A program made the translations under genes and the position numbers. The notes beneath the pieces are model-generated. The model had not been told where the DNA came from and ran no database searches. It was given only the letters and a program-made list of their open reading frames with translations. This document shows positions 7,474 to 23,107 of a DNA stretch of 23,107 bases, piece after piece; the first letter of the stretch is position 1; every line of letters begins with the position of its first letter. Origin of the DNA: a virus. Location: positions 1-23,107 of the IMG/VR virus record IMGVR_UViG_3300035199_000306; one strand, 5' to 3'.

Positions 7474-7509
7474 AAGAGGGAAAGGTGTTAACCTTTCCCT
7501 CTTTTTTTT
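7474..7509 (+). terminator. Rho-independent terminator after the capsid gene
   Basis: A perfect 13-bp stem (7474-7486 with 7491-7503) closes on the 4-base loop GTTA and is followed by an uninterrupted T8 tract (7502-7509). It lies 42 bp after the capsid stop and would end most transcripts there, limiting expression of the downstream gene to read-through or a separate promoter. Confidence 0.93.
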
Positions 7510-7917: not shown

Positions 7918-8394
7918 ATGCCAAAGACAAAAATTTCAGATTCTCAAGGTCTTGTTACTTTAACGGGTAACGGTACACAGATAACCAACCACTGTAACAT
8001 TACGGATGGTACATTAAACTATAAGACAAAAGTAGTAACGCTCCCCGACGCTGCCAAGACGCTAGCTCCCGGGGATTCGGGTTCTAAAATTTTGATGGCA
8101 GCCGCCACAGGTGCAAGAGTAGTTACTCTTCCAACCGCTGAGGCCGGTTTAAATTTCGAGGTGTATGTCGTCGACACGGGACAGAATATAGATTTCGAAG
8201 GTAGTTCTGCAGGCATGATCGGTATCATGGTTGACAACAACGGTGTGCTCACAAACTCGACGACAACGAACTCGATTTTCAGAGTTGCAGACAACGCCTC
8301 CGCCGCTGATTCCTTTACGTTAACATGCGATGGTACAAACTGGCATGTCCGTGGAGTTACTGCTGACACCTCTAAATTCACCTTCGAAGCGTAA
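7918..8394 (+). CDS. Putative head decoration/fibre protein, paralogue A
   Basis: The 158-aa protein is Thr/Gly/Ala/Asn-rich and predicted to be all beta. It ends with DSFTLTCDGTNWHVRGV followed by about 12 residues. A DGTNWHV-type motif recurs near the C-terminus of many phage virion surface proteins. The next gene is a paralogue with the same architecture. The start is backed by AAAAGGAGG at 7904-7911. Placement just after the capsid gene and before the neck genes suggests a protein on the capsid surface. There is no signal peptide or coiled coil. The family is inferred from the C-terminal motif and the context. Confidence 0.7.
   Translation: MPKTKISDSQGLVTLTGNGTQITNHCNITDGTLNYKTKVVTLPDAAKTLAPGDSGSKILMAAATGARVVTLPTAEAGLNFEVYVVDTGQNIDFEGSSAGMIGIMVDNNGVLTNSTTTNSIFRVADNASAADSFTLTCDGTNWHVRGVTADTSKFTFEA
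8320..8357 (+). repeat. 38-bp direct repeat, copy 1
   Basis: These 38 bases are identical to 8877-8914 in the adjacent paralogous gene and encode the LTCDGTNWHVRGV motif. Identity ends abruptly on both sides even at synonymous positions. Confidence 0.95.
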
Positions 8395-8405: not shown

Positions 8406-8963
8406 ATGTCAAAAACTACAGTAACCGATTTAAACGGTGTAAATCAGACGCGTGGCGTGGGATCCGTGTTTAAAAACGCAGTTGATGTCACCAATGGTAC
8501 AATCGCCTATAAAATGGGTCTAAGAAAGATGCCCCTGAACTCTAGCGAAAACGGTCTAACAACTGGTGACGTAGGTGCTGCTTTTACACTAAGCGCTGCC
8601 AACAGTGGGGGTGTCTTACAGATGGTGTCCGGTTCGGGTGCGCTTACCGCGACCCTTCCGCCAACGCTGGCCGGGCTTCACTTTGACGTCATGGTCACCG
8701 GTTGTGGCGACGCCGGCGGCAAAGCAAACCAGACATTTCCATTCTTTACATTTAAGGCACAGTCAGGTGGGGTACTAGGTATCGTTGTAGATGCTGATGG
8801 TGTTTTAACGAATACTTCCACAGCGAGAGGATCATTCTGTGTATCGGGAACAGCACATGCTGAGGATTCTTTCTCATTAACATGCGATGGTACAAACTGG
8901 CATGTCCGTGGAGTCGTTCGCGACACAACACAGTATAACTTTATAGTTTCTGACCTCGGATAG
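8406..8963 (+). CDS. Putative head decoration/fibre protein, paralogue B
   Basis: The 185-aa protein aligns end to end with its upstream neighbour: both open M-x-KT, share TNGT/TDGT-x-x-YK, A-x-TLP-x-x-x-AGL-x-F-x-V, GVLTN, and the C-terminal DSF(S/T)LTCDGTNWHVRGV. It differs by an insertion of about 20 residues in the middle (around GDAGGKANQTFPFFTFKAQSG) and a longer tail. GGGAG at 8395-8399 precedes the ATG, and only 11 bases separate the two genes. The pair probably arose by tandem duplication and makes related surface proteins. The 38 bases covering the DGTNWHV motif are identical in both, while the rest has diverged widely. Confidence 0.7.
   Translation: MSKTTVTDLNGVNQTRGVGSVFKNAVDVTNGTIAYKMGLRKMPLNSSENGLTTGDVGAAFTLSAANSGGVLQMVSGSGALTATLPPTLAGLHFDVMVTGCGDAGGKANQTFPFFTFKAQSGGVLGIVVDADGVLTNTSTARGSFCVSGTAHAEDSFSLTCDGTNWHVRGVVRDTTQYNFIVSDLG
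8877..8914 (+). repeat. 38-bp direct repeat, copy 2
   Basis: This segment is identical to 8320-8357. The spacing between copies is 557 bp, about one gene length, as expected for tandem paralogues with a conserved or recently homogenised 3' segment. Confidence 0.95.
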
Positions 8964-8983: not shown

Positions 8984-9622
8984 TTAAGATTGAGACACCT
9001 GTTTGACGGTTATGTTAATCGCGAATGATCGTCTTTCACCATCTGTTCTATACGGATAAACAGTGTGCAGTATTCCAGCGGGCCACATGTAAAAATCTCC
9101 CACCTTTGGAATAATTCTTAGTTGGTGCGGACACAACATTTCTGCCTGTCCATGAATTAGCTCCAAACAACCCGTAGAAATGTCCCCCTGTCCGCCTCCA
9201 GCCTCTTTTTCATGCTCTAATGACATGTTGGGCATCTTCAAGAATCCTGTTCCAACAAGCTGGCACTGTCCCTGGTGGTGGTGGGCGGGATTAAAGTCTC
9301 CCGGGAACATACTGTTTATCCATGCTTGACTAACGCCAACCAGCAATTTATCATTCGGAAGAGCATCTGGCCTTCGTTCCTTCACACTGGCATAGTACTG
9401 TTGCGCGCAAGAAATAAAGAATTCCAAATATTCATTCAATACAGCGGGTGGAACCGCATATTCATGCGTTACCTTACCTGCCAGAGTGTTTGATATATCA
9501 TGTTGCTTAAGCTGTTGTTCATCGTTAATGACTTGTTCTGCGAACGTATTTAGGACATCAATAATCGTGTCTGGCATTGCGAATTTACAGACAGAGGGTC
9601 CAAAGGGTCTTAATTCTTCCAT
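8984..9622 (-). CDS. 2-oxoglutarate/Fe(II)-dependent oxygenase
   Basis: The 212-aa protein fits the small 2OG-Fe(II) oxygenases (prolyl-hydroxylase-like double-stranded beta helix) often carried by aquatic phages. It shows WINSMFPGDFNPAHHHQGQ (residues 101-119) with candidate iron ligands at His114-His116, then GTGFLKMP. GDFYMWPAGILHTVYPY (175-191) carries the distal His186, and RRSFAINI (197-204) the probable 2-oxoglutarate-binding Arg. The acidic residue of the usual H-x-D/E pair is not evident. Such enzymes hydroxylate protein side chains or small molecules using O2 and 2-oxoglutarate; the substrate here is unknown. GGAGA lies before the ATG on the minus strand. It is the only minus-strand gene here and converges on paralogue B with a 20-bp gap, so it looks like an inserted accessory gene. 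Confidence 0.88.
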   Translation of the reverse strand: MEELRPFGPSVCKFAMPDTIIDVLNTFAEQVINDEQQLKQHDISNTLAGKVTHEYAVPPAVLNEYLEFFISCAQQYYASVKERRPDALPNDKLLVGVSQAWINSMFPGDFNPAHHHQGQCQLVGTGFLKMPNMSLEHEKEAGGGQGDISTGCLELIHGQAEMLCPHQLRIIPKVGDFYMWPAGILHTVYPYRTDGERRSFAINITVKQVSQS

Positions 9623-12963: not shown

Positions 12964-15900
12964 ATGGCAAAAGAACAAACATTTAAATCACCAGGGTTTT
13001 TTGATAGAGAGATTGATGCAACGGCAACGAATCCTCTTGGTCCAGTTGGAACACCATATGGTGTGATTGGAACCGCAGAGCGAGGTCCGGCATTTGTCCC
13101 AATCACGGTTGGTGATATGGACCAGTATAGAGAGATTTTTGGCGGATTAGACTCAAAACGATTCGCACCATACGCAGTGGATCGTATCTTTAAGGCAAAA
13201 TCTACGGGAAGAGGCGCTGTAACATTTTTGCGTGTCTTAGGAGCTGGCGCAAATGTATCCGTCGCAGATTTTAACCTTACTAAGACAGCGGGCGTTGTAA
13301 ACAACGCTGGATTCAAGATCACAGGTGATGCTGTGGATTATGCTGGACCCCACGCAGGAGCGGTACAATTTATTGTGGCCCGCCATTCTAGTTCGTTAGG
13401 AGCCAACATCTTAGATGGCCAGTTTAGTGATAACGACACATTTCCAAATAATAAGACAGCCGACGGCGTTTTGGCAGGAGGCCACTTTGGAACAAACCTC
13501 GTGCGTGGCGTCGTGTTTCTTGCCACTGGCACGAGGTTAATGATTACCAGCACCGCGGTCCCCCTATCATCAGCCTTCTTTGCAGGTAGCGATCAGGGGA
13601 CCTGGACCGCCGGCGATGGGGCGAAGGGCGAAAATCCATTCCTAGGCGCTGCAACCACCAAAGACGGACTATTTACACTCATACTATCCGCCTCCGGTGA
13701 TGGATCTGCTAATGCTTCGGCCGGGTCTTCTGGCGGCGGTGGCGCAACATTCTTTGGTGCTTCTGATGCAAAGTGGAAAACAAACGGTATCGAAGGTATT
13801 AGGGCCTTCACGGCATCGCTTGACCCAGGCTCAGATAAATATTTCGGAAAGATACTAAATAAGAATCCTCTACGATTTGCAGAGGAGCAGCACCTGCTAT
13901 ACCTAGACTATCAGGTGTCCGCAGTATTGCAGTCCTCCAGCTATGATGGCATCCAATCCGACAATCCGGGCAGTCGTTCTTCCCGCCAAACGAACGTTGC
14001 AGTCGTAAGTGGTAGCGCTAACTCAAACGGTGATTCAGGAATTGTTGGACAGAGCTATCTCGAGGCCTTTGGTCGATACGATACTCGCTTCCGCCCAGCA
14101 AGAACGACATATTTCATATCCCAACCATTTGGTAGGAAAGAGCACGATTTATTTTACCTAGAATCGCTGGACGATGGAGCGTATGCCAATGAACGTATAA
14201 AGGTCTCCGTAACAAATCACAAGGCATCTACTGATCCAAGCTATCCCTATGGAACATTCACGGTAATGATTAGGGATTTTAACGATATAGATGGATCAGA
14301 AAAGATTCTTGAACAGTTCTCCGGTTTAAATCTGGACCCAGATTCAGGTAAGTTTATTTCAAAGGCCATTGGAGATATGAAGACGGAGTACTACTTCGAT
14401 ACTGCGAATGAATCCGACCGCGGATTTAAGAGAACTGGTAGGTATCCCAACGTATCTAGGTTTGTGCGAGTTGTTGAATCTATAAATTTAAAGACGGGTA
14501 AATTACCAAAAGCAGCAATTCCTTTCGGATTCCGGGGCATACCAGCCCTAAAGACGGTACCGGGAATCGTGTGTTCTGACATCAACTACGCACCTGGCAA
14601 CATGCCACTTGGTGCTCTCATGGGTAACGATCCACAAGTGGGCCAACCAGGTGGAGCAAATCGTGGTGGAATAACAAGATCACTTACGGGTTCTGTCATT
14701 CCACCGCTGCCACTTCGCTCTCATATTGCCGCCGGTCCGCTAACATCCTCTATCAACGAAACGTTAAACTTCGAGTATAGAGGTGACTGGGGTCCGTTGG
14801 CTCGTATAAACGCAAACCTGTACTGGGGAGTTAAATTTGAACACCCCCCAATGAGCTCGTCAGTTAGTACTACGGATAATACTTTCGTTAAGAATGCGAT
14901 CCTATACCCTAATGAGGGATCTGAAAAGAACCAGCTGGTAAACGCGTATACAAAGTTTCAGGGCATAATGAAATTAGGGGTTCTATACTCTGGTTCATCG
15001 GCTGATGAGTTTAATAACAATAAGTTTTCTCTTGCGAGAGTGTGTCTCGCGAATGATAACATAGCTGATTTAACTGCATCCGCGAGGGTTCACATGAAAA
15101 GGGCGGTGTATGCTCGTAATGGAAAGAATGATTCAAACACCTACAGGATTACTCCCGGTGGAAGTTTACCCCGGGAATCTTCACGCATTACGTTTGCATC
15201 GTTGTTAAACTCATCATCTGCACCAACCTTCAATAGGTTCAGCGACTATACGAAGTTTACGAACATATTCTATGGTGGGTTCGATGGTCTGAATATCTTG
15301 AACAGGGATGCAAGGTCTATGAACGACAAAGCCGCCTCAACCGATTCGGGCGGCCACGCAAATTCATCGTATTCCGATAACTCGTTATTATCAAACGTTG
15401 AGGGCACAAAAACTACAAATAACGCAATTAATACATACCGTCAGGCTGTTCGTATTATGACAAACCAGTCGTACGTATCAGTTAATGTGTTGGCAGTTCC
15501 GGGTATTAGAGATGATCTTGTAACTGAAGAGGCAATGGATCTCGTTAAGAAATATGCTCTCGCCATGTACATCCTGGACGGAAGAAGCTACGATAAAAAC
15601 AGTAATCGTTTGTTTATGTCAGATAAAAACAGGCCCGATACTGTTAAAACTGTTGACAAGTTTGAAGAGCGAGATATTGATAACAACTATGCTGCGACAT
15701 ATTATCCAGATGTTATAATACCAGATACCGACAACAGTAGAAATGTAAAGGCACCATCATCGATTGCAGCGCTTGCAGCATTATCATTCAATGATGATAA
15801 TGGGTTCCCGTGGTTTGCCCCAGCAGGATTCAATAGGGCAAGCCTGGATTTTGTTGTGAATGTTACGACTCGGTTAAATTCACGTGATCGAGATGACCTG

Positions 15901-16308
15901 TATGAAGCTCGCATCAATCCAATCGCAACTTTCCCGCGACAGGGTTTTGTAATCTTTGGCCAAAAGACACTTCAGGCCGCAAAATCTTCATTAGATCGTG
16001 TTAATGTTAGACGGTTATTACTGGAAGTAAAGCGACGTGTTAGTTCAATTGCACGAGATTTTCTGTTTGAGCCAAATACACAATTAACGCGTCAACGTCT
16101 AAGCAATAGAATAATCGCGCAGCTAGCTATTATTCAATCAAATGCGGGTGTGGAACAGTTTAGGGTTATTGTCGACTCTACAAATAATACAGAGGAAGAT
16201 GTGAATAACTATAGATTGAATGGACGTATCGTTATCGTCCCCACAAGGACCGTTGAATTTATAGCTGTTGATTTCATCGTCACTAATGATGGAGTGAATT
16301 TCGTATAG
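12964..16308 (+). CDS. 18: Tail sheath protein, paralogue 1 (T4 gp18-like)
   Basis: The 1114-aa protein carries the contractile-sheath signature. At the N-terminus there is KSPGFFDREID, then PYGVIGTAERGPAFVPITVGD (residues ~38-58). In the C-terminal core there are AVPGIRDDLVTEEAMDLV (~850), PWFAPAG (~947), and GQKTLQAAKSSLDRVNVRRLLLE (~998-1020) leading into FLFEPN. The sheath polymerises around the tube and contracts to drive injection. T4 gp18 is 659 aa, so about 450 residues have been added between the termini, including a Gly/Ser-rich stretch (SSGGGGATFFG, near 255-265). AGGAG at 12953-12957 sets the start. The next gene is a full-length divergent paralogue, so the sheath may be hetero-oligomeric. 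Confidence 0.95.
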   Translation: MAKEQTFKSPGFFDREIDATATNPLGPVGTPYGVIGTAERGPAFVPITVGDMDQYREIFGGLDSKRFAPYAVDRIFKAKSTGRGAVTFLRVLGAGANVSVADFNLTKTAGVVNNAGFKITGDAVDYAGPHAGAVQFIVARHSSSLGANILDGQFSDNDTFPNNKTADGVLAGGHFGTNLVRGVVFLATGTRLMITSTAVPLSSAFFAGSDQGTWTAGDGAKGENPFLGAATTKDGLFTLILSASGDGSANASAGSSGGGGATFFGASDAKWKTNGIEGIRAFTASLDPGSDKYFGKILNKNPLRFAEEQHLLYLDYQVSAVLQSSSYDGIQSDNPGSRSSRQTNVAVVSGSANSNGDSGIVGQSYLEAFGRYDTRFRPARTTYFISQPFGRKEHDLFYLESLDDGAYANERIKVSVTNHKASTDPSYPYGTFTVMIRDFNDIDGSEKILEQFSGLNLDPDSGKFISKAIGDMKTEYYFDTANESDRGFKRTGRYPNVSRFVRVVESINLKTGKLPKAAIPFGFRGIPALKTVPGIVCSDINYAPGNMPLGALMGNDPQVGQPGGANRGGITRSLTGSVIPPLPLRSHIAAGPLTSSINETLNFEYRGDWGPLARINANLYWGVKFEHPPMSSSVSTTDNTFVKNAILYPNEGSEKNQLVNAYTKFQGIMKLGVLYSGSSADEFNNNKFSLARVCLANDNIADLTASARVHMKRAVYARNGKNDSNTYRITPGGSLPRESSRITFASLLNSSSAPTFNRFSDYTKFTNIFYGGFDGLNILNRDARSMNDKAASTDSGGHANSSYSDNSLLSNVEGTKTTNNAINTYRQAVRIMTNQSYVSVNVLAVPGIRDDLVTEEAMDLVKKYALAMYILDGRSYDKNSNRLFMSDKNRPDTVKTVDKFEERDIDNNYAATYYPDVIIPDTDNSRNVKAPSSIAALAALSFNDDNGFPWFAPAGFNRASLDFVVNVTTRLNSRDRDDLYEARINPIATFPRQGFVIFGQKTLQAAKSSLDRVNVRRLLLEVKRRVSSIARDFLFEPNTQLTRQRLSNRIIAQLAIIQSNAGVEQFRVIVDSTNNTEEDVNNYRLNGRIVIVPTRTVEFIAVDFIVTNDGVNFV

Positions 16309-16344: not shown

Positions 16345-19300
16345 ATGGCAGAAAAAGTTTATAAGTCCCCCGGGGTTTTTACCATAGAAGTAGACAAGAC
16401 TGTCCAGGAAGCGGTATCCACCATTTCTGGTATTCCAGCAGGTGTCATAGGCACGTCCAATCAGGGCCAAGCATTTGTTCCAATTACAGTTGGAACCTTC
16501 AAGGAGTTCGAGGATTATTTCGGTTCTGTTACTGAGCCCGTAACGAAGCAACCTCACTTTGGTGTTCTCGCTGCCAACGAGTGGCTTAGAAAAGCATCCG
16601 CCTTAACATACATAAAAGTTCTAGGAGTGGGTGATGGTAAAAAGAACCTGGGAAGTGATACATCAAATCTTTCAGGTCAGACAGTGGAGGCCGGTGGTGT
16701 AAAAGATGCCGGTTTCATAGTCGGTGAACGCCAACCACAGGGCGATGGAAATCTTAGCGCAAATATAAGAGCTGTAGATGCTGGGCAGCTCGGTCGCACA
16801 TATTTCCTGGGTTGTTTCATGTCTGGTTCACCTGGAAGCACACTCGGCCACGATTACTTTAATAAGACAGGACTCGTATCGGAGTTCTGGACAAGCCAGG
16901 TCGTTGCTCCCAATACTCAACACCTCACAGGAGCGGTGCCAATCATTCGTGGTGTCCTTATGACTGCATCCGGTGTTGTTCCAAGGCTCTCCTCATCGTG
17001 TGGCCACGCCGGAGGTGACGCCCCCACCGCAGGTCCATTCTCTAACGATGTAAACAGGAATAGGACCATCGAATATACCGGTATCGGATCACAGGTTGCC
17101 GATGTGCCAAACGGTTACGGCGCTTTCGCCGCAGTTGGCGGCGGCCTCACAGGCACAGTAGATCTATCGAACGGCGGATCCACATTCGAGCTGATACTAA
17201 ATGGTTTTAAGGGAACCGATGCTAAAGCTACCAATGATCGTATATTTAGTTGCTCCTTTAATCCAACAGATGCGAGCTATTTTGCGAATGTTTTAAACAC
17301 TGATCCGGAACTATTTGAAAAGAAAGGCCACTATCTGTATTCCTCGTATGACATGACCGATGCCATTGGTGTCGTTACAGGCACTGCAGTGGTCAATATC
17401 TTTAGTGGAGCCTCAGCAGACATTACAACCGACGGGTTAAGTCGTCATCCGGATCCAAGTGGCCACAATCGTTGTGCCACTGGTGAGGAACCAGGTATCG
17501 TATTCATTACGACCTCATCGCTGGGTAGAAATGAAGGATCGTCAGCGATTCCAAACTACGAGGGATTTAGTGATCGATTCAGAGCCCCACAGACCCCCTG
17601 GATTGTCTCGCAACCATACGGTGGAAGATTCTATAAGCTGTTTAGGGTCGTTGCGCTGGACGATGGCGACTATGTGAATGATAGGTATAAAGTGACCATC
17701 TCTGGTTTGGACAAGACAGGAAAGCAGTTCAAGTTATCACTAAGGGATTTCGATGCGCAGGATGGGTTGGATTCTCCGATACAATCGTGGTCTGGCCTTG
17801 TCATGGATCCAAATGATTCTAACTTTATCGGTAAAGTTATCGGAGATACAGACACGTACTTTGATTTTGATCAGGAAGAACGATCTCAGCGGCTTGTTGT
17901 TGAGGGTAACTATCCGAACGTCGGACGACTTATACGCGTTGAGCTTCACGATGATGTCCTGGATGGAAAGATTCCGTCGGACGCTATTCCATTCGGATTC
18001 CACAGTCCAGACCACCTATTCACCAGTGGATCGCTAACATGGGCGACAAACGGTGAACGTTCGTATTTACCCCGCACAGGAGAACAATGGGACGCGACTG
18101 TGAGCCCGACTAAGGGAACATCATATTCCTCAGATTACTCAAACGAGTACGGTATCAAGAGTGCAATCATACCGCCACTACCATTTAGGGATAACCTGAG
18201 AACAAATAAGGCCACCGCCAATAACGTTCTAACTAACAGTGAATTGACATGGGGTATCCAGTTCTATCTCAAGACGGATAAGGATGTACCGAATAAAACG
18301 TCAACGAAGGCCGCCGGTGGAGCCGCTGGTAAGGGTGTAGCGAGGCTTGACGAGACGGTAAGGTCATACACCAAGTATTTCCCAAGGTACACCGCCTCGA
18401 ACAAAAAAGCCATGAGGGAAGATCCAGCAGCATCAATAGCTGAATCATTTAATCGTAATATGTTTAACCTATCAGCTATTTCCTGTCCAACTTCATCTAT
18501 AACGGGACTCGCAGACTGGGAGAAGCCAGAACTATGGAACTATAAGCGTGATGCGCTTATTCCGCTCGGTAGCAAGTCATTGGATTTAAATGATATGGAT
18601 GTGCCCGGTATTAGCAACCTTGCCAAGTTTACAACGATATTCCAGGGTGGATTTAACGGAGTAAACATGTTTAATAAAGACGCCGCCTTATTTAGGAATC
18701 CGACCGTCCATCGTGAAATGTCGTATCCATCCAATCGCGGTGGTAAGGACGGTCCAACCGTCAAGGCGTATCTAAAGGCGCTTGATGTAATGGCTAATAC
18801 TGCAGATGTCGATGTTAAACTCATGGCAATTCCAGGAATACGTCATGAAGTTGTATCGAATGAAGCGATTGATACCGTTGAGACTCGTTTCGATGCCATG
18901 TATATAATGGATATCGAGGAACGTGATGAAAATAACTCTGTCATCACGGGTTCCTTCCCGGACTTTCCGCCCGTTGCATCTAATACAGCGACGGCATTTA
19001 AAAATCGTGCGTTAGATACAAACTTCGCAGCTGCTTATTTTCCGAATGTTACAATGACTGCAACTCTTGCTGACGGATCAGTAAAGATGTACGAAAATGT
19101 ACCACCGTCAGTTGCGGTTCTTGGTGCGTATGCGTTAAATGATTCATTAAAGTTTCCTTGGTACGCACCTGCTGGCACAACGCGGGGAGCATTACCACGT
19201 GTCGTAAGTCTACAGGGAGCCACTGATAACCAGACGAATAGGGATCAATTGTTCGGAGCGGGTATTAATCCCCTGGTCTATCCAGCGGGAACACCCCAGC

Positions 19301-19656
19301 CGTATGTCTTTGGACAGTCAAATCTTCAAGCTGCTCATTCTGCACTAAATCGTGTCTCCGTTAGAAGGCTATTAATAGAGCTTAGGAGATCGGTGAAAGA
19401 GGTTGCAAATGTGATGTTATTTGAACCTAATAGGGCCGAGACATTATCAAGGTTTAGCGCCCTTGTCAATCCGATCCTGGCAAATATCCAACAGGAACAG
19501 GGTATAGAACGATACAAGGTACAAATTGACACAACCACAACCACGCAAGCTGATATCGAAAATAATACAATTCGGGGTAAAATCTTCCTCCAGCCTTCCA
19601 AGACGGCTGAGGTTATTGCGCTTACTTTCGAGGCAGCTAATGAAGCGAAGGATTAA
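16345..19656 (+). CDS. 18: Tail sheath protein, paralogue 2 (T4 gp18-like)
   Basis: The 1103-aa protein is collinear with the preceding sheath gene: YKSPGVFTIEVD at the start, then GVIGTSNQGQAFVPITVG, DAIPFGFHS mid-protein, FQGGFNGVNMFNKDA (~770), AIPGIRHEVVSNEAIDTV (~830), PWYAPAGTTRGAL (~938), and GQSNLQAAHSALNRVSVRRLLIE (~989-1011) followed by FEPN. Core and C-terminal blocks are clearly shared. The regions around residues 100-330 differ strongly, as expected for outward-facing insertions. Both copies are complete with good ribosome sites (AGGAG at 16329-16333), so neither looks like a decaying duplicate. It may co-assemble with paralogue 1, form a distinct tail zone, or replace it under some condition. 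Confidence 0.95.
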   Translation: MAEKVYKSPGVFTIEVDKTVQEAVSTISGIPAGVIGTSNQGQAFVPITVGTFKEFEDYFGSVTEPVTKQPHFGVLAANEWLRKASALTYIKVLGVGDGKKNLGSDTSNLSGQTVEAGGVKDAGFIVGERQPQGDGNLSANIRAVDAGQLGRTYFLGCFMSGSPGSTLGHDYFNKTGLVSEFWTSQVVAPNTQHLTGAVPIIRGVLMTASGVVPRLSSSCGHAGGDAPTAGPFSNDVNRNRTIEYTGIGSQVADVPNGYGAFAAVGGGLTGTVDLSNGGSTFELILNGFKGTDAKATNDRIFSCSFNPTDASYFANVLNTDPELFEKKGHYLYSSYDMTDAIGVVTGTAVVNIFSGASADITTDGLSRHPDPSGHNRCATGEEPGIVFITTSSLGRNEGSSAIPNYEGFSDRFRAPQTPWIVSQPYGGRFYKLFRVVALDDGDYVNDRYKVTISGLDKTGKQFKLSLRDFDAQDGLDSPIQSWSGLVMDPNDSNFIGKVIGDTDTYFDFDQEERSQRLVVEGNYPNVGRLIRVELHDDVLDGKIPSDAIPFGFHSPDHLFTSGSLTWATNGERSYLPRTGEQWDATVSPTKGTSYSSDYSNEYGIKSAIIPPLPFRDNLRTNKATANNVLTNSELTWGIQFYLKTDKDVPNKTSTKAAGGAAGKGVARLDETVRSYTKYFPRYTASNKKAMREDPAASIAESFNRNMFNLSAISCPTSSITGLADWEKPELWNYKRDALIPLGSKSLDLNDMDVPGISNLAKFTTIFQGGFNGVNMFNKDAALFRNPTVHREMSYPSNRGGKDGPTVKAYLKALDVMANTADVDVKLMAIPGIRHEVVSNEAIDTVETRFDAMYIMDIEERDENNSVITGSFPDFPPVASNTATAFKNRALDTNFAAAYFPNVTMTATLADGSVKMYENVPPSVAVLGAYALNDSLKFPWYAPAGTTRGALPRVVSLQGATDNQTNRDQLFGAGINPLVYPAGTPQPYVFGQSNLQAAHSALNRVSVRRLLIELRRSVKEVANVMLFEPNRAETLSRFSALVNPILANIQQEQGIERYKVQIDTTTTTQADIENNTIRGKIFLQPSKTAEVIALTFEAANEAKD

Positions 19657-19707: not shown

Positions 19708-20196
19708 ATGGCTGAGATTCTTACAGTTGAACAAATGCTGCCAAATAAGTTTGAACCAAAACGAAAATTTAGGTGGCTATTAGCAGTTGAAGGTATCGAT
19801 GCGTTTATCATTAAGACAACCGCACGTCCCCAAATGACATTCGAAGAAATCACTATGGATTTCATTAACCACAGAAGGTATCTGGCTGGTAAGCATACAT
19901 TTAATGACTTGTCGGTTACTCTTTACGATCCGATTGCTCCATCAGGAGCACAACAGGTCATGGAATGGATCAGATTAAATTTTGAGGCCGTATCAGGAAG
20001 ATCGGGATACGCAGATTTTTATAAGCGTGACATTCAATTAAAGCTTCTTGATCCCGTTGGTACAGTCGTTGAACTGTGGGACATTAAGGGAGCATGGTGT
20101 AAAGATATCAACTTTGGAGATCTGGATTACACAAATAATGATGCCACTGATATCACTATGACAATTCGATACGATCTCTGTGTATTACAGTATTAA
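19708..20196 (+). CDS. 19: Tail tube protein (T4 gp19-like)
   Basis: At 162 aa this is almost exactly the length of T4 gp19 (163 aa), and it follows the sheath gene as in T4. It shows the tube-protein pattern: an N-terminal VEQMLPNKFEPKRKFRWLL, TTARPQMTFEEITMDFINHR (about residues 37-56), YLAGKHTFNDLSVTLYDPI (about 58-76), AQQVMEWIRLNFEAVSGRSGY, then a C-terminal WCKDINFGDLDYTNNDATDI and a last strand TMTIRYDLCVL. Hexamers stack to form the inner tube through which DNA and the tape measure pass. A strong AGGAGG site precedes the ATG. It is the most confidently assigned tail gene besides the sheaths. Confidence 0.95.
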   Translation: MAEILTVEQMLPNKFEPKRKFRWLLAVEGIDAFIIKTTARPQMTFEEITMDFINHRRYLAGKHTFNDLSVTLYDPIAPSGAQQVMEWIRLNFEAVSGRSGYADFYKRDIQLKLLDPVGTVVELWDIKGAWCKDINFGDLDYTNNDATDITMTIRYDLCVLQY

Positions 20197-20333: not shown

Positions 20334-20918
20334 ATGTCTGATGTAAGAGATTCAAATACTGTTTTTCAAAAACAGGAAGTCCCCGCCCCTCCACCACCAC
20401 CGATACCATCCGTAAACACAGTTAAGGAATATGATATTCCTGTGGAGTCTATTCCACTACCAAGTACCGGTATCGTATATCCCCATGGCCATCCACTACA
20501 CAACGTAGCGACTGTTGATGTTAGGGCAATGACAGCTAAGGATGAAGATATTTTAATGTCACGCGCGTTAATAAAAAACGGCACCGTTATCAGTAAGTTA
20601 CTTGAGTCTTGTATGACCAACAAGGATGTGCGAGCAACCGAAATGCTTTCCGGTGACAGGAACGCTGTTATGGTCGGTCTTCGTACCATTGGATACGGCG
20701 CAGATTATGATGTTGTTGTGCCATGTCCTGAGTGCGATCACCAAAATGAAGCAACGTTTAACTTAACAAACGTTCCAATAAAATCGCTTGAGCTCCAACC
20801 AGTGAATCCTGGTCAAAATTATTTTGAGTTTGCACTTCCTGTATCTAAAAAAAGGATTCAAGGAAGAGAACCTTGTGACTCAACGATTGGTATACAGTAT
20901 AATTTCTATCGACGATGA
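20334..20918 (+). CDS. 26: Baseplate-hub assembly protein, gp26-like, N-terminal part (frame 1 of 3)
   Basis: The frame encodes 194 residues. After a Pro-rich start (PAPPPPPIPS, residues 18-27) it shows the T4 gp26-family core: ESIPLPSTGIVYP, VDVRAMTAKDEDILMSRALI, KLLESCMTNKDV, MLSGDRNAVMVGLRTIGYG, then a CxxC knuckle, CPEC at residues 131-134, and FEFALPVSKK. In T4 gp26 acts in assembly of the baseplate hub. Family-like sequence ends at the A7 run (20847-20853). The last 21 residues of this frame, from RIQGREP on, look random, while the expected continuation, including a second CxxC, is in the +1 frame. The start is set by AAGGAG at 20323-20328. See the frameshift features. Confidence 0.85.
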   Translation: MSDVRDSNTVFQKQEVPAPPPPPIPSVNTVKEYDIPVESIPLPSTGIVYPHGHPLHNVATVDVRAMTAKDEDILMSRALIKNGTVISKLLESCMTNKDVRATEMLSGDRNAVMVGLRTIGYGADYDVVVPCPECDHQNEATFNLTNVPIKSLELQPVNPGQNYFEFALPVSKKRIQGREPCDSTIGIQYNFYRR

Positions 20919-21114
20919 GACAGATCGTGCGAAGCTTGGAAATATGGTTAGAAATATGCTTGCTCGAGATTCTCTCGCTCTCCGACGATATATCGATAAG
21001 AACGAACCCGGCATCGATCTTAGCGATTACATGGTTTGTGATAGCTGTGGAGAGGAGACAAAGGTGAGCATCCCACTCGGGATGTCGTTTTTTTGGCCTG
21101 ACACCGGAGCATAG
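20824..21114 (+). CDS. 26: gp26-like protein, C-terminal part (frame 2 of 3)
   Basis: This frame is open from before the A7 run to a TAG at 21112-21114. Meaningful sequence starts at the A7 run: KKGFKEENLVTQRLVYSI, IDDETDRAKLGNMVRNMLAR, DSLALRRYIDKNEPGIDLSD, CDSC (a CxxC), then IPLGMSFFWPD, the usual kind of end for this family. The nominal TTG at 20824 has no ribosome site, so this is not an independent gene. Joined to the preceding frame by skipping one base at the A7 run, the product is 259 aa, and its two CxxC pairs (CPEC and CDSC) would form one four-cysteine zinc site. The linker between them looks short, so a small deletion is also possible. Confidence 0.75.
   Translation: MSLHFLYLKKGFKEENLVTQRLVYSIISIDDETDRAKLGNMVRNMLARDSLALRRYIDKNEPGIDLSDYMVCDSCGEETKVSIPLGMSFFWPDTGA
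20847..20853 (+). other. A7 run at an apparent +1 frame change inside the gp26-like gene
   Basis: In the upstream frame the run reads TCT AAA AAA AGG. The downstream half of the protein continues in the frame reading AAA AAA GGA TTC, which needs one base fewer (or a -2 slip). Candidates are an extra A in the sequence, transcriptional slippage, programmed frameshifting, or a true inactivating mutation. Confidence 0.75.
21088..21094 (+). other. T7 run at an apparent frame change joining the gp26-like protein to a third frame
   Basis: In the gp26-like frame the run reads TCG TTT TTT TGG CCT (SFFWP) and stops 18 bases later. The next conserved-looking segment (LTPEHREYVLEYAFILMYYGG) is in the frame reading TTT TTT GGC CTG, again +1 (or -2). 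The third frame has no usable start codon before 21146. Confidence 0.7.
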
Positions 21115-21343
21115 GGAATATGTTCTAGAGTATGCATTTATCCTCATGTACTATGGAGGATTTACATATACTGAGGCAATGAATATTCCTCTTAGTTATC
21201 GTCGCTGGTTTACTGAGAGGATTCAACGAGAGATAGAAAGATCAAACGGTGTTAGCCGTCAGACCCACACAAATCCAGCCGGAGCACAGATGATGGGTAA
21301 TCCAAAGCCCATTGGCGGTATGCGAACTCGCCGTTTTGGATAA
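21089..21343 (+). CDS. Third-frame extension, probable tail-assembly chaperone-like C-terminal part
   Basis: This frame is open from 21068 (a TGA lies at 21065-21067) to TAA at 21341-21343. It encodes FFGLTPEHREYVLEYAFILM, then YYGGFTYTEAMNIPLSYRRWFTERI and a charged, Gly/Pro-rich tail. An aromatic-Gly-Gly-Phe segment followed by an NxPLxxRR helix recalls the short proteins that follow gp26-like genes in T4-type phages and the second products of frameshifted tail-assembly genes. The only ATG, at 21146, lies inside this segment and lacks a ribosome site, so translation probably arrives by frameshift from the T7 run. A fully joined product of the three frames would be about 335 aa. It directly precedes the tape-measure gene. 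Confidence 0.65.
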   Translation, partial: FFGLTPEHREYVLEYAFILMYYGGFTYTEAMNIPLSYRRWFTERIQREIERSNGVSRQTHTNPAGAQMMGNPKPIGGMRTRRFG

Positions 21344-21394: not shown

Positions 21395-23107
21395 ATGCCA
21401 CCACCTAATATAAATGCCAGAATGATGCGAGACCTAAATCGCGTCCTCCGTCAAGTTTCTGAACAACAGGCACAGATTAATGAACAATTAGGGTCACAGG
21501 TGGACATGTATCGTCAGATGCATGAGATCCTTGTAAGAATTCAGACTGAAACGTTACCAGATATTGCGGAGGGTCTTGAAGATGCTGCTGATAGCATGGG
21601 AGACCTAGGAACGCAAGGCGGAATTTTATCGGGAGTCATCGGTGGCCTCGGAAAGGCTTTTGAGTTTGTATTCGGAATAGTGGGTACACTCGGCAAGGCT
21701 GCCTGGGGTATATTAAAGGGTGTAGGGTCCACACTCATCGGTATCGGAAAATTTGTCGGAAAAACCCTCGTCGGCGTATTTAAAACGGCGTTTCAAGTTG
21801 CGGGTGCAGCCATAGGTGGATTCATGACAGTCTGGCTGTATCCGCTACAGAAGGGGTTTGAAGTTCTCTATAGTGTTGTAAAAAGTATTTTAGGCGAATT
21901 TAAGCTTCTTGGAGGCGTAATTCCAGATTTCGGTAGGCTTGCCGAGGAAATGGCCCAATACCGCAGGCAAGCCGCAATTGCTGCAGAGTCAATCCGCGGA
22001 AGCTTTGGTGATATCGGTAAGGGTTCCGGAGAGATGGGCTCCAAGGTTATGAGAGCCGTCCGCAACGCCGGTAACTCGTTCGGTCGATTCGGACCAAATG
22101 CAGGACAGATGGCTCAGGAAGTTGGAAAGATATTCGCAGATTTTGGTGTAACGGCTTTCGGTAGGTTGGGCAATGAGATTGCGAGAAATTCCAAGCTTAT
22201 GTTTAGGTTTGTAAAGGGCTCTGGTGTATCCGGCGAAGCTCTTAAGAATCTAGGAACATATGCTCTATTTACGGGGCAAACGTTAACTAAACTTGTCAGA
22301 GTGACAACCACGCTCTCAGCAAAATTCGGTAGGCTAACTGGCGGAACATACACGGTCCGTAAACAATTTGCCGAAGCAAGGGGAGACATCCGCGCGTTCG
22401 GTAACGTATCAGACAAGGCACTAGGCGCCGCAATTGCACATGTGAATAGCCTTGGGTTAAGCATGCGTGACCTCAAGGGAATGATGACAGCATTCGATGA
22501 TTTCCCCAAGGCGGCTGAGAATGTCTCAATGTTGAATCAACAGCTGGGTATGAACCTAGATGTAATTGGTCTAGTCAGGGAACAGGATCCAGCGAAACGA
22601 TTTGACATGATCCGTAAGGAATTCCTTAGACAGGGCAATAGTTTTGCAGACCTGACTCGCCAGCAGAAAGACCTGCTGTCCAGGACTCTTGATACTCCGG
22701 TAGAGATCCTTGCCGCGGGCTTCCGCGAGGGCGGAGCTGGTCTCGATGAGCTAAGAAGAAGGGTCAGGCATGAAAAGCCTATGGAAAGGATGGCCCGAAC
22801 CCTTAGCCGACTCGCCGCGTCTATCGAGAGACTGTTCGTAACAAAAGTTCCCGGCGGCGGACTTTTTGGTTCGTTTTTCGATGGTATCGCGGAATCCGTC
22901 AAGTATTCCTCCGCCACCACCAAAATGGCCGCAGCGATGGAACGATCCCAGCGGGCAGGCATGGCGTTTGGAAGAAACATGATGGGAGCAGACAAACCCG
23001 TTGGTAGAATGTTTAACTGGCTGTTAAATCTGTTCGATGGCGGTCGTTTCTCAAGGGCCCTTACCATGGGTCTTGAAGCTATCGAGAGCTTTATCAATGA
23101 TCCAACG
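21395..23107 (+). CDS. Tape-measure protein, N-terminal part (runs off the window)
   Basis: An ATG at 21395 opens a frame of 571 codons with no stop before the window ends. The first 60 residues are a Gln-rich helix (RQVSEQQAQINEQLGSQVDM). Residues ~75-150 are Gly-rich and hydrophobic with repeated G-x-x-x-G/K units (IGGLGKAFEFVFGIVGTLGK), consistent with membrane-active segments. The rest is long amphipathic helices with recurring F-G-x-x-G/A motifs (SFGDIGKG, FGRFGPN, FADFGVTAFGRLG, KFGRLTG). This composition and the position after tube and chaperone-like genes identify a tape measure, which sets tail length and is ejected during infection. The ribosome site is weak (ACGGGAC), so the start could be later, for example the ATG pair near 21422. 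Long minus-strand frames opposite it are shadows. Confidence 0.85.
   Translation, partial: MPPPNINARMMRDLNRVLRQVSEQQAQINEQLGSQVDMYRQMHEILVRIQTETLPDIAEGLEDAADSMGDLGTQGGILSGVIGGLGKAFEFVFGIVGTLGKAAWGILKGVGSTLIGIGKFVGKTLVGVFKTAFQVAGAAIGGFMTVWLYPLQKGFEVLYSVVKSILGEFKLLGGVIPDFGRLAEEMAQYRRQAAIAAESIRGSFGDIGKGSGEMGSKVMRAVRNAGNSFGRFGPNAGQMAQEVGKIFADFGVTAFGRLGNEIARNSKLMFRFVKGSGVSGEALKNLGTYALFTGQTLTKLVRVTTTLSAKFGRLTGGTYTVRKQFAEARGDIRAFGNVSDKALGAAIAHVNSLGLSMRDLKGMMTAFDDFPKAAENVSMLNQQLGMNLDVIGLVREQDPAKRFDMIRKEFLRQGNSFADLTRQQKDLLSRTLDTPVEILAAGFREGGAGLDELRRRVRHEKPMERMARTLSRLAASIERLFVTKVPGGGLFGSFFDGIAESVKYSSATTKMAAAMERSQRAGMAFGRNMMGADKPVGRMFNWLLNLFDGGRFSRALTMGLEAIESFINDPT

Follow-up and report, generated by a model that had tools for sequence, protein, structure and literature searches.

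A conserved T7 run at the end of a gp26-like gene as a probable programmed frameshift site ahead of the tape-measure gene in T4-type phages

Introduction

How does a tail module of the T4 type express a conserved reading frame that has no start codon of its own and lies between a gp26-like gene and the gene of the tape-measure protein? The question is raised by a 23,107-base IMG/VR virus record, analysed here over its whole length and called the window, which carries a T4-type head and contractile-tail module with the gene order gp23-like capsid, two very long sheath proteins, gp19-like tube, gp26-like protein and tape measure. An earlier note, made from the letters of the window, had proposed that a run of seven T joins the gp26-like protein to this frame by a +1 or -2 shift, forming a system like lambda G/GT on gp26.

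Tail-assembly chaperone genes of T4-like phages were reportedly identified, and their frameshifting described, by Vladimirov, Gautam and Davidson in 2022 (Virology 566:9-15). As that work is relayed by later papers, some T4-like phages have separate genes for a short and a long chaperone and use no shift (Vladimirov et al. 2022 via PMC10885494), and poly-T -1 signals occur in T4-like TAC-N genes (Vladimirov et al. 2022 cited by PMC12846349). A 2016 review lists -1, -2 and +1 shifts in tail chaperone genes, with T4 as the exception (PMC5009743), and gp26 and gp51 of T4 have been listed as hub assembly chaperones (PMC3004832).

Results

The locus and its two overlapping frames

All the features of the locus lie on the + strand. 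As in the lambda G/GT layout, two overlapping frames, gp26 and the frame that we call ORF3, are placed between the gene of the tail tube protein (gp19-like, 19708-20196; phrog_4542 tail tube, E 1e-34; Pfam Phage_T4_gp19) and that of the tape-measure protein, which begins at 21395 and runs off the window at 23107 (phrog_167 and phrog_305 tail length tape measure, E 9e-6 and 3e-5). The order of tube, gp26/ORF3 and tape measure is identical in immuto, LIS04 and SP-15 and is compatible with that in Mel-JY01. At the junction Flavobacterium phage immuto has TTTCTTTGG and Microcystis phage Mel-JY01 has T7GGCC. The 5' part of the gp26-like tail-assembly chaperone gene (TAC-N, 20334-20856) was delimited by PF12322, phrog_150 and tblastn to related loci; its frame matches PF12322 T4_baseplate over residues 59-169 (49.9 bits against a cut-off of 24.5, E 4e-13) and the phrog_150 baseplate hub family (E 2e-14). 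The 3' part (20848-21114), 46-62% identical to 21 viral loci, ends in MSFFWPDTGA*, the end of the short product, and FFWP is nearly invariant at the gp26 C-terminus in 61 sequences. The terminating TAG occupies 21112-21114, where the earlier note had placed it. The predicted fold of gp26 from one relative (mean pLDDT 95.0) matches hub or gp26 proteins of other phages; against the PDB it gave no significant match, the HK97 chaperone 2ob9 being listed at E 2.3 and probability 0.23.

ORF3 is open from 21068 to its stop codon at 21341-21343, in +1/-2 register to gp26. It contains no ATG, GTG or TTG before 21146, the ATG at that position has no Shine-Dalgarno sequence upstream, and the conserved segment, GLTPE and what follows, lies further upstream; on each of these points the first reading of the locus was accurate. 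The segment begins exactly at the T-run. The run itself (21088-21094) is read in the gp26 frame as TTT TTT TGG, in codons 21088-21090, 21091-21093 and 21094-21096, and it is near-invariant in about 200 distinct junctions; the P-site codon of the slip is most likely 21091-21093. Only one other + strand run of at least seven T occurs in the window, at 7502. After a shift ORF3 would encode GLTPEHREYVLEY...GGMRTRRFG, 82 amino acids counted from 21095.

The ORF3 domain was compared with known families. Three of 50 members match gp51 (phrog_634; best 7e-6), the window's own ORF3 being unmatched, and 16 of 50 match DUF6760 (best 3e-5); a match to a 'tail assembly chaperone' family is weak (0.015), as is the alignment of the T4 gp51 C-terminus to ORF3. 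Genes 26 and 51 of T4 are divergent, and as single sequences in profile comparison their products gave no significant score. A control search for DUF6760 in named genomes found nothing. ORF3 of one relative is predicted to be a helical domain, with pLDDT above 90 over the core, and the predicted structure found no match in the PDB. The best reading of gp26 and ORF3 is that they would form a short and a long chaperone, because of the family matches and the position before the tape measure.

Elsewhere in the window, the tandem tail sheath proteins (12964-16308, 1114 aa; 16345-19656, 1103 aa) are very long for sheath, and it is mostly their C-terminal parts that match known sheath families. Adjacent and apparently paralogous proteins with similar ends (SFTLTCDGTNWHVRGV and SFSLTCDGTNWHVRGV) are encoded at 7918-8394 (158 aa) and 8406-8963 (185 aa), and a 212-aa frame on the minus strand at 8984-9622, amid + strand genes, resembles by eye a putative 2-oxoglutarate/iron oxygenase.

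A second frame break is private to this contig

The gp26-like gene of the window is also broken at an A-run (20843-20860), past which the 5' frame runs on to 20918 out of the family register. The A8 near 20847 had been taken for a first slippery run, and this part of the proposal does not stand: relatives read straight through in a single frame and carry there an FKFLTGxDE..ERKK segment, whereas about 74 nt of gp26, including the conserved FKFLTGxDE, are missing from the window between two A-rich stretches. An additional programmed shift at A8 is thus ruled out, and by comparison with relatives the gap belongs to this contig alone, as either a deletion or a misassembly. Since the gene is broken by it, the window may hold a defective or wrongly assembled gp26, one that is non-functional as given. 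The T7 junction is intact despite the break upstream.

The register and the run are conserved

Scans with ORF3 and with the gp26 end gave 90 loci, 88 of which have both parts; with the window these make 89 loci and 60 distinct junctions. ORF3 stands in +1/-2 register to gp26 at every one of the 89, and the 60 junctions read almost invariantly TTTTTTTGGCCTRAC or near it. That string alone retrieves at least 80 loci in viral contigs, and 79 of the matches listed are the gp26/ORF3 junction. The wide gp26 alignment (A1) was too diverse to scan with. A non-circular scan used a gp26 profile that ends before the site and was joined by 6 loci from bacterial-genome contigs. Among 80 distinct junctions with an FFWP-like end in the motif-independent scan, 74 read TTTTTTTGG (TTT TTT TGG), four TTTCTTTGG and two TTTTTTTTC; the gp26-profile scan gave the further variants TTTCTTCTC (L236 and L237), TTTTTTTAC (L295) and TTTTTTTAT (L305). 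Of 200 distinct junctions, 199 keep the +1 frame open over 55 codons or more, and none does so for the remaining frame. The comparison of homologues that the earlier note had called for finds both the T7 run and the +1/-2 relation kept, and the register at the junction is far from chance. At one locus, L093 (about 3213) in the huge-phage genome LR756508, the +1/-2 frame is kept and the junction reads TTT CTA TTC CCT, where a slip site is not evident.

A synonymous footprint precedes the run

Codon use in gp26 is as expected from codon -30 to about codon -16, and from there to the T-run it is sharply biased. In the window an SD-like element, GGAGAGGAG, lies inside gp26 at 21049-21057, 30 nt before the run. 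Its counterpart in relatives is GGAGG, which stands at codons -11 to -9, with G favoured in third place, in 97 of 131 representatives and ends mostly 17, 23 or 26 nt before the run. Synonymous randomisation predicts an SD core in 44.6 +- 5.5 of the 131; 104 have one in gp26. Glu is encoded by GAG in 72% of cases from codon -15 to codon -4 and in 23% elsewhere. SD-like sequences act at a spacing of 3 nt in prfB and of about 10 nt in dnaX. At the 17-26 nt seen in most relatives, the element is too distant from the run for either classical spacing.

Just 5' of the run an RNA hairpin, GCATCCC-ACTC-GGGATGT, can be drawn at 21068-21085. The segment before the run is more stable than its synonymous randomisations (-4.22 vs -1.98 kcal/mol; difference -2.24 +- 0.25), which makes the hairpin suggestive as a signal. 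As a universal element it is ruled out, since its pairs share no register and are weak in several subclades. Downstream of the run, RNA structure over 70 nt showed nothing general, the mean z being only -0.9.

The run is also bounded. The base before it is T in one of 180 cases against 102.7 expected, and in none of 40 against 19.8 expected after clustering at under 50% identity. A T there would create the -1 heptamer T_TTT_TTT, and a -1 shift at the junction meets a stop almost immediately (median open length 1 codon; the CCTRAC end has TRA in the -1 frame). All 124 junctions that were not chosen by motif have TTT as their first Phe codon (log10P -11.6), TTC being 19% of Phe codons. The +1/-2 clade has a lone T8 member, L257, which reads GAT TTT TTT TGG CCA GGG just after its gp26 match (1501-2064) and which also is without the CCTRAC end; its site is a natural test of the rule that excludes T.

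Sister lineages carry their start-less frame in the -1 register

In gp26 homologues with T before the run, a start-less frame lies in the -1 register behind T_TTT_TTY. This group comprises C48C1 and relatives, PA5oct, RaK2, Munch, 121Q and Hallingskeid, and further Syn19, P-SSM7 and MED4-213 (cyanophages), phiM12, Mendera, KVP40 and Atu_ph04. The last four may have a separate start, because an ATG overlaps or follows their gp26 stop. The gp26 tree separates the +1/-2 sequences from the others by a single branch (95/70; present in 95% of bootstrap trees), so that the group requires one change. The BRock group, inside the +1/-2 side, has CT[GA] TTT C in 10 of 10 counted.

Cyanophage gp51, annotated as 'baseplate hub assembly catalyst', is called from an internal start at L221 (3256-3360), L343 (1765-1902) and L344 (1801-1896). 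Such calls are as short as 31-34 codons, and the frame is open back to T_TTT_TTY in gp26; the real cyanophage 'gp51' product, as judged from the frame, is probably a -1 fusion with gp26.

Discussion

We find it very probable that ribosomes undergo a programmed frameshift at the junction, with +1 as the likeliest direction, which would give a long chaperone made of gp26 and the gp51-like domain. This agrees with the shift that the earlier note had proposed for gp26 ahead of the tape measure, given about 200 conserved junctions, a lack of usable starts, the synonymous footprint and the family assignments. It is from the conserved register and slip site, the missing start, the footprint and the gene order that we infer the translational nature, the direction and the efficiency of the shift, as well as the chaperone function. 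Most ribosomes would finish gp26 at its stop and release the short tail-assembly chaperone. Some would pause at TTT TTT TGG while Phe-tRNA occupies the second TTT, and the tRNA would re-pair one base downstream on UUU. The slipped ribosomes would enter the start-less frame, adding the gp51-like helical domain, and the long and short forms might act jointly on the tape-measure protein encoded next to them, as lambda gpG and gpGT do.

The alternative that survives best is a Mu-like -2 shift, which we regard as unlikely though worth keeping in view. Phe-tRNA would move back from bases 4-6 of the run to bases 2-4, and the ribosome would enter the identical frame with one extra Phe (SFFF-GLTPEHR); for the window the predicted junction peptides are VSIPLGMSFFGLTPEHR with two F after +1 and VSIPLGMSFFFGLTPEHR with three F after -2. 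Mu itself employs -2 (PMC5009743), LIS04 (TTTTTTA) re-pairs better by -2, and bases 2-4 of the run are always T, T, Y. The fixed third base of the first Phe codon, T in 124/124, would be needed by a -2 slip and not by a pure P-site +1 slip and so counts against +1, although the invariant first TTT can alternatively be explained by a weak E-site codon. We favour +1, at roughly twice the likelihood of -2, because the BRock group (CTG or CTA, TTT, C; thus CTGTTTC) and GXN1 (TTC TTT C), both on the +1/-2 side of the tree, can re-pair only by +1 and allow no -2 re-pairing at all. In accordance, CUU U and UUU U, the codons of the prfB site, are known +1 slip sites (PMC10885494).

Slippage of RNA polymerase, in which a nascent hairpin followed by T7, much as in a terminator, would yield transcripts one U short, is improbable. 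The window does have a hairpin directly before T7, and in relatives this segment is on average stronger than synonymous random sequence; yet the hairpin is not general, being weak in many members, the TTTCTTTGG, TTTCTTCTC, TTCTTTC and CTGTTTC sites hold no run long enough, members with TTTCTTT lack the homopolymer as well, and a T8 would slip better whereas T before the run is excluded.

That ORF3 is a separate gene with an unusual start of its own is more improbable still. Some members do have an upstream or early ATG, GTG or TTG, with an SD-like sequence before one in 33 of 200 junctions, and in KVP40, a -1 relative, an ATG overlaps the gp26 stop. Across the 200 distinct junctions, however, no candidate start is common to the members: 83 lack a start codon in the interval from the last ORF3-frame stop to the conserved segment, 14 have a stop within four codons before that segment, which begins exactly at the T-run, 164 are free of starts over its first ten codons, their first downstream start coming ten or more codons in, and one lacks a start altogether. 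CTG as a start codon is ruled out, as it is not kept (CTA in 27/136). We thus reject an own start, and the ribosome site and start codon that were to speak against a shift are not general in relatives.

Last, a sequencing or assembly error that splits one fused gene can be dismissed: the contig does have its second break at the A-run, and L088 likewise shows one, yet both T7 and the register are met again at about 200 distinct junctions, as well as in named isolates, and among those junctions no six-T run gives one fused gene, so that relatives refute T7 as an error.

Among known systems, the chaperone frameshift as a kind is already known for T4-like phages, as far as the citing papers convey it, and the case described there (Vladimirov et al. 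2022) shares with ours a gp26-type short chaperone with a gp51-like C-domain, the position before the tape measure and poly-T sites. The published T4-like signals reported there are -1, whereas here a large clade has the +1/-2 register, a base other than T before the run and an SD-like element in gp26. As in lambda gpG/gpGT, one gene would yield both chaperone forms, short and long, beside the tape measure; lambda does so by a low-level shift close to where G ends (PMC5009743). Like the lambda type, too, the locus has a second frame without its own start, joined at a conserved slip site. Unlike lambda, which shifts -1, the window has the +1/-2 register, and T is excluded from the position where it would complete T_TTT_TTT; the -1 direction at X_XXY_YYZ is usual in G/GT systems and not obligatory. 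Mu (-2) and HSTV-2 (very likely +1) likewise reach a long chaperone through the +1 frame (PMC5009743), in other phages and at other slip sequences. The +1 shift of prfB (RF2) also has a P-site CUU or UUU that slips onto an overlapping U with an SD-like sequence upstream, whereas here the A site holds no stop codon (UGG, rarely UUC, UAY or CUC) and the SD-like element lies far more upstream. In the literature searched, in which Vladimirov et al. 2022 was represented by citing papers, we find no description of a +1/-2 clade, a bounded T7 or the SD-like element, and the direction together with these signals looks like a new variant.

It is conceivable, and we put it forward tentatively, as somewhat short of an even chance, that a compound recoding signal of far-upstream GGAGG, small hairpin and exactly bounded T7 pushes the ribosome +1 in a mostly metagenomic T4-type lineage whose sisters shift -1, so that the direction would have switched once in one gene family and would be set largely by the base before the run. 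A gene family in which some members shift -1 and others +1/-2, told apart by a single base, makes the determinants of slippage direction directly testable. The finding also amounts to an annotation correction for a very common group of uncultured T4-like phages, in which annotation either misses the long-chaperone domain or begins it at a false internal start, and it bears on how T4-like phages produce both chaperone forms and on the roles of gp26 and gp51.
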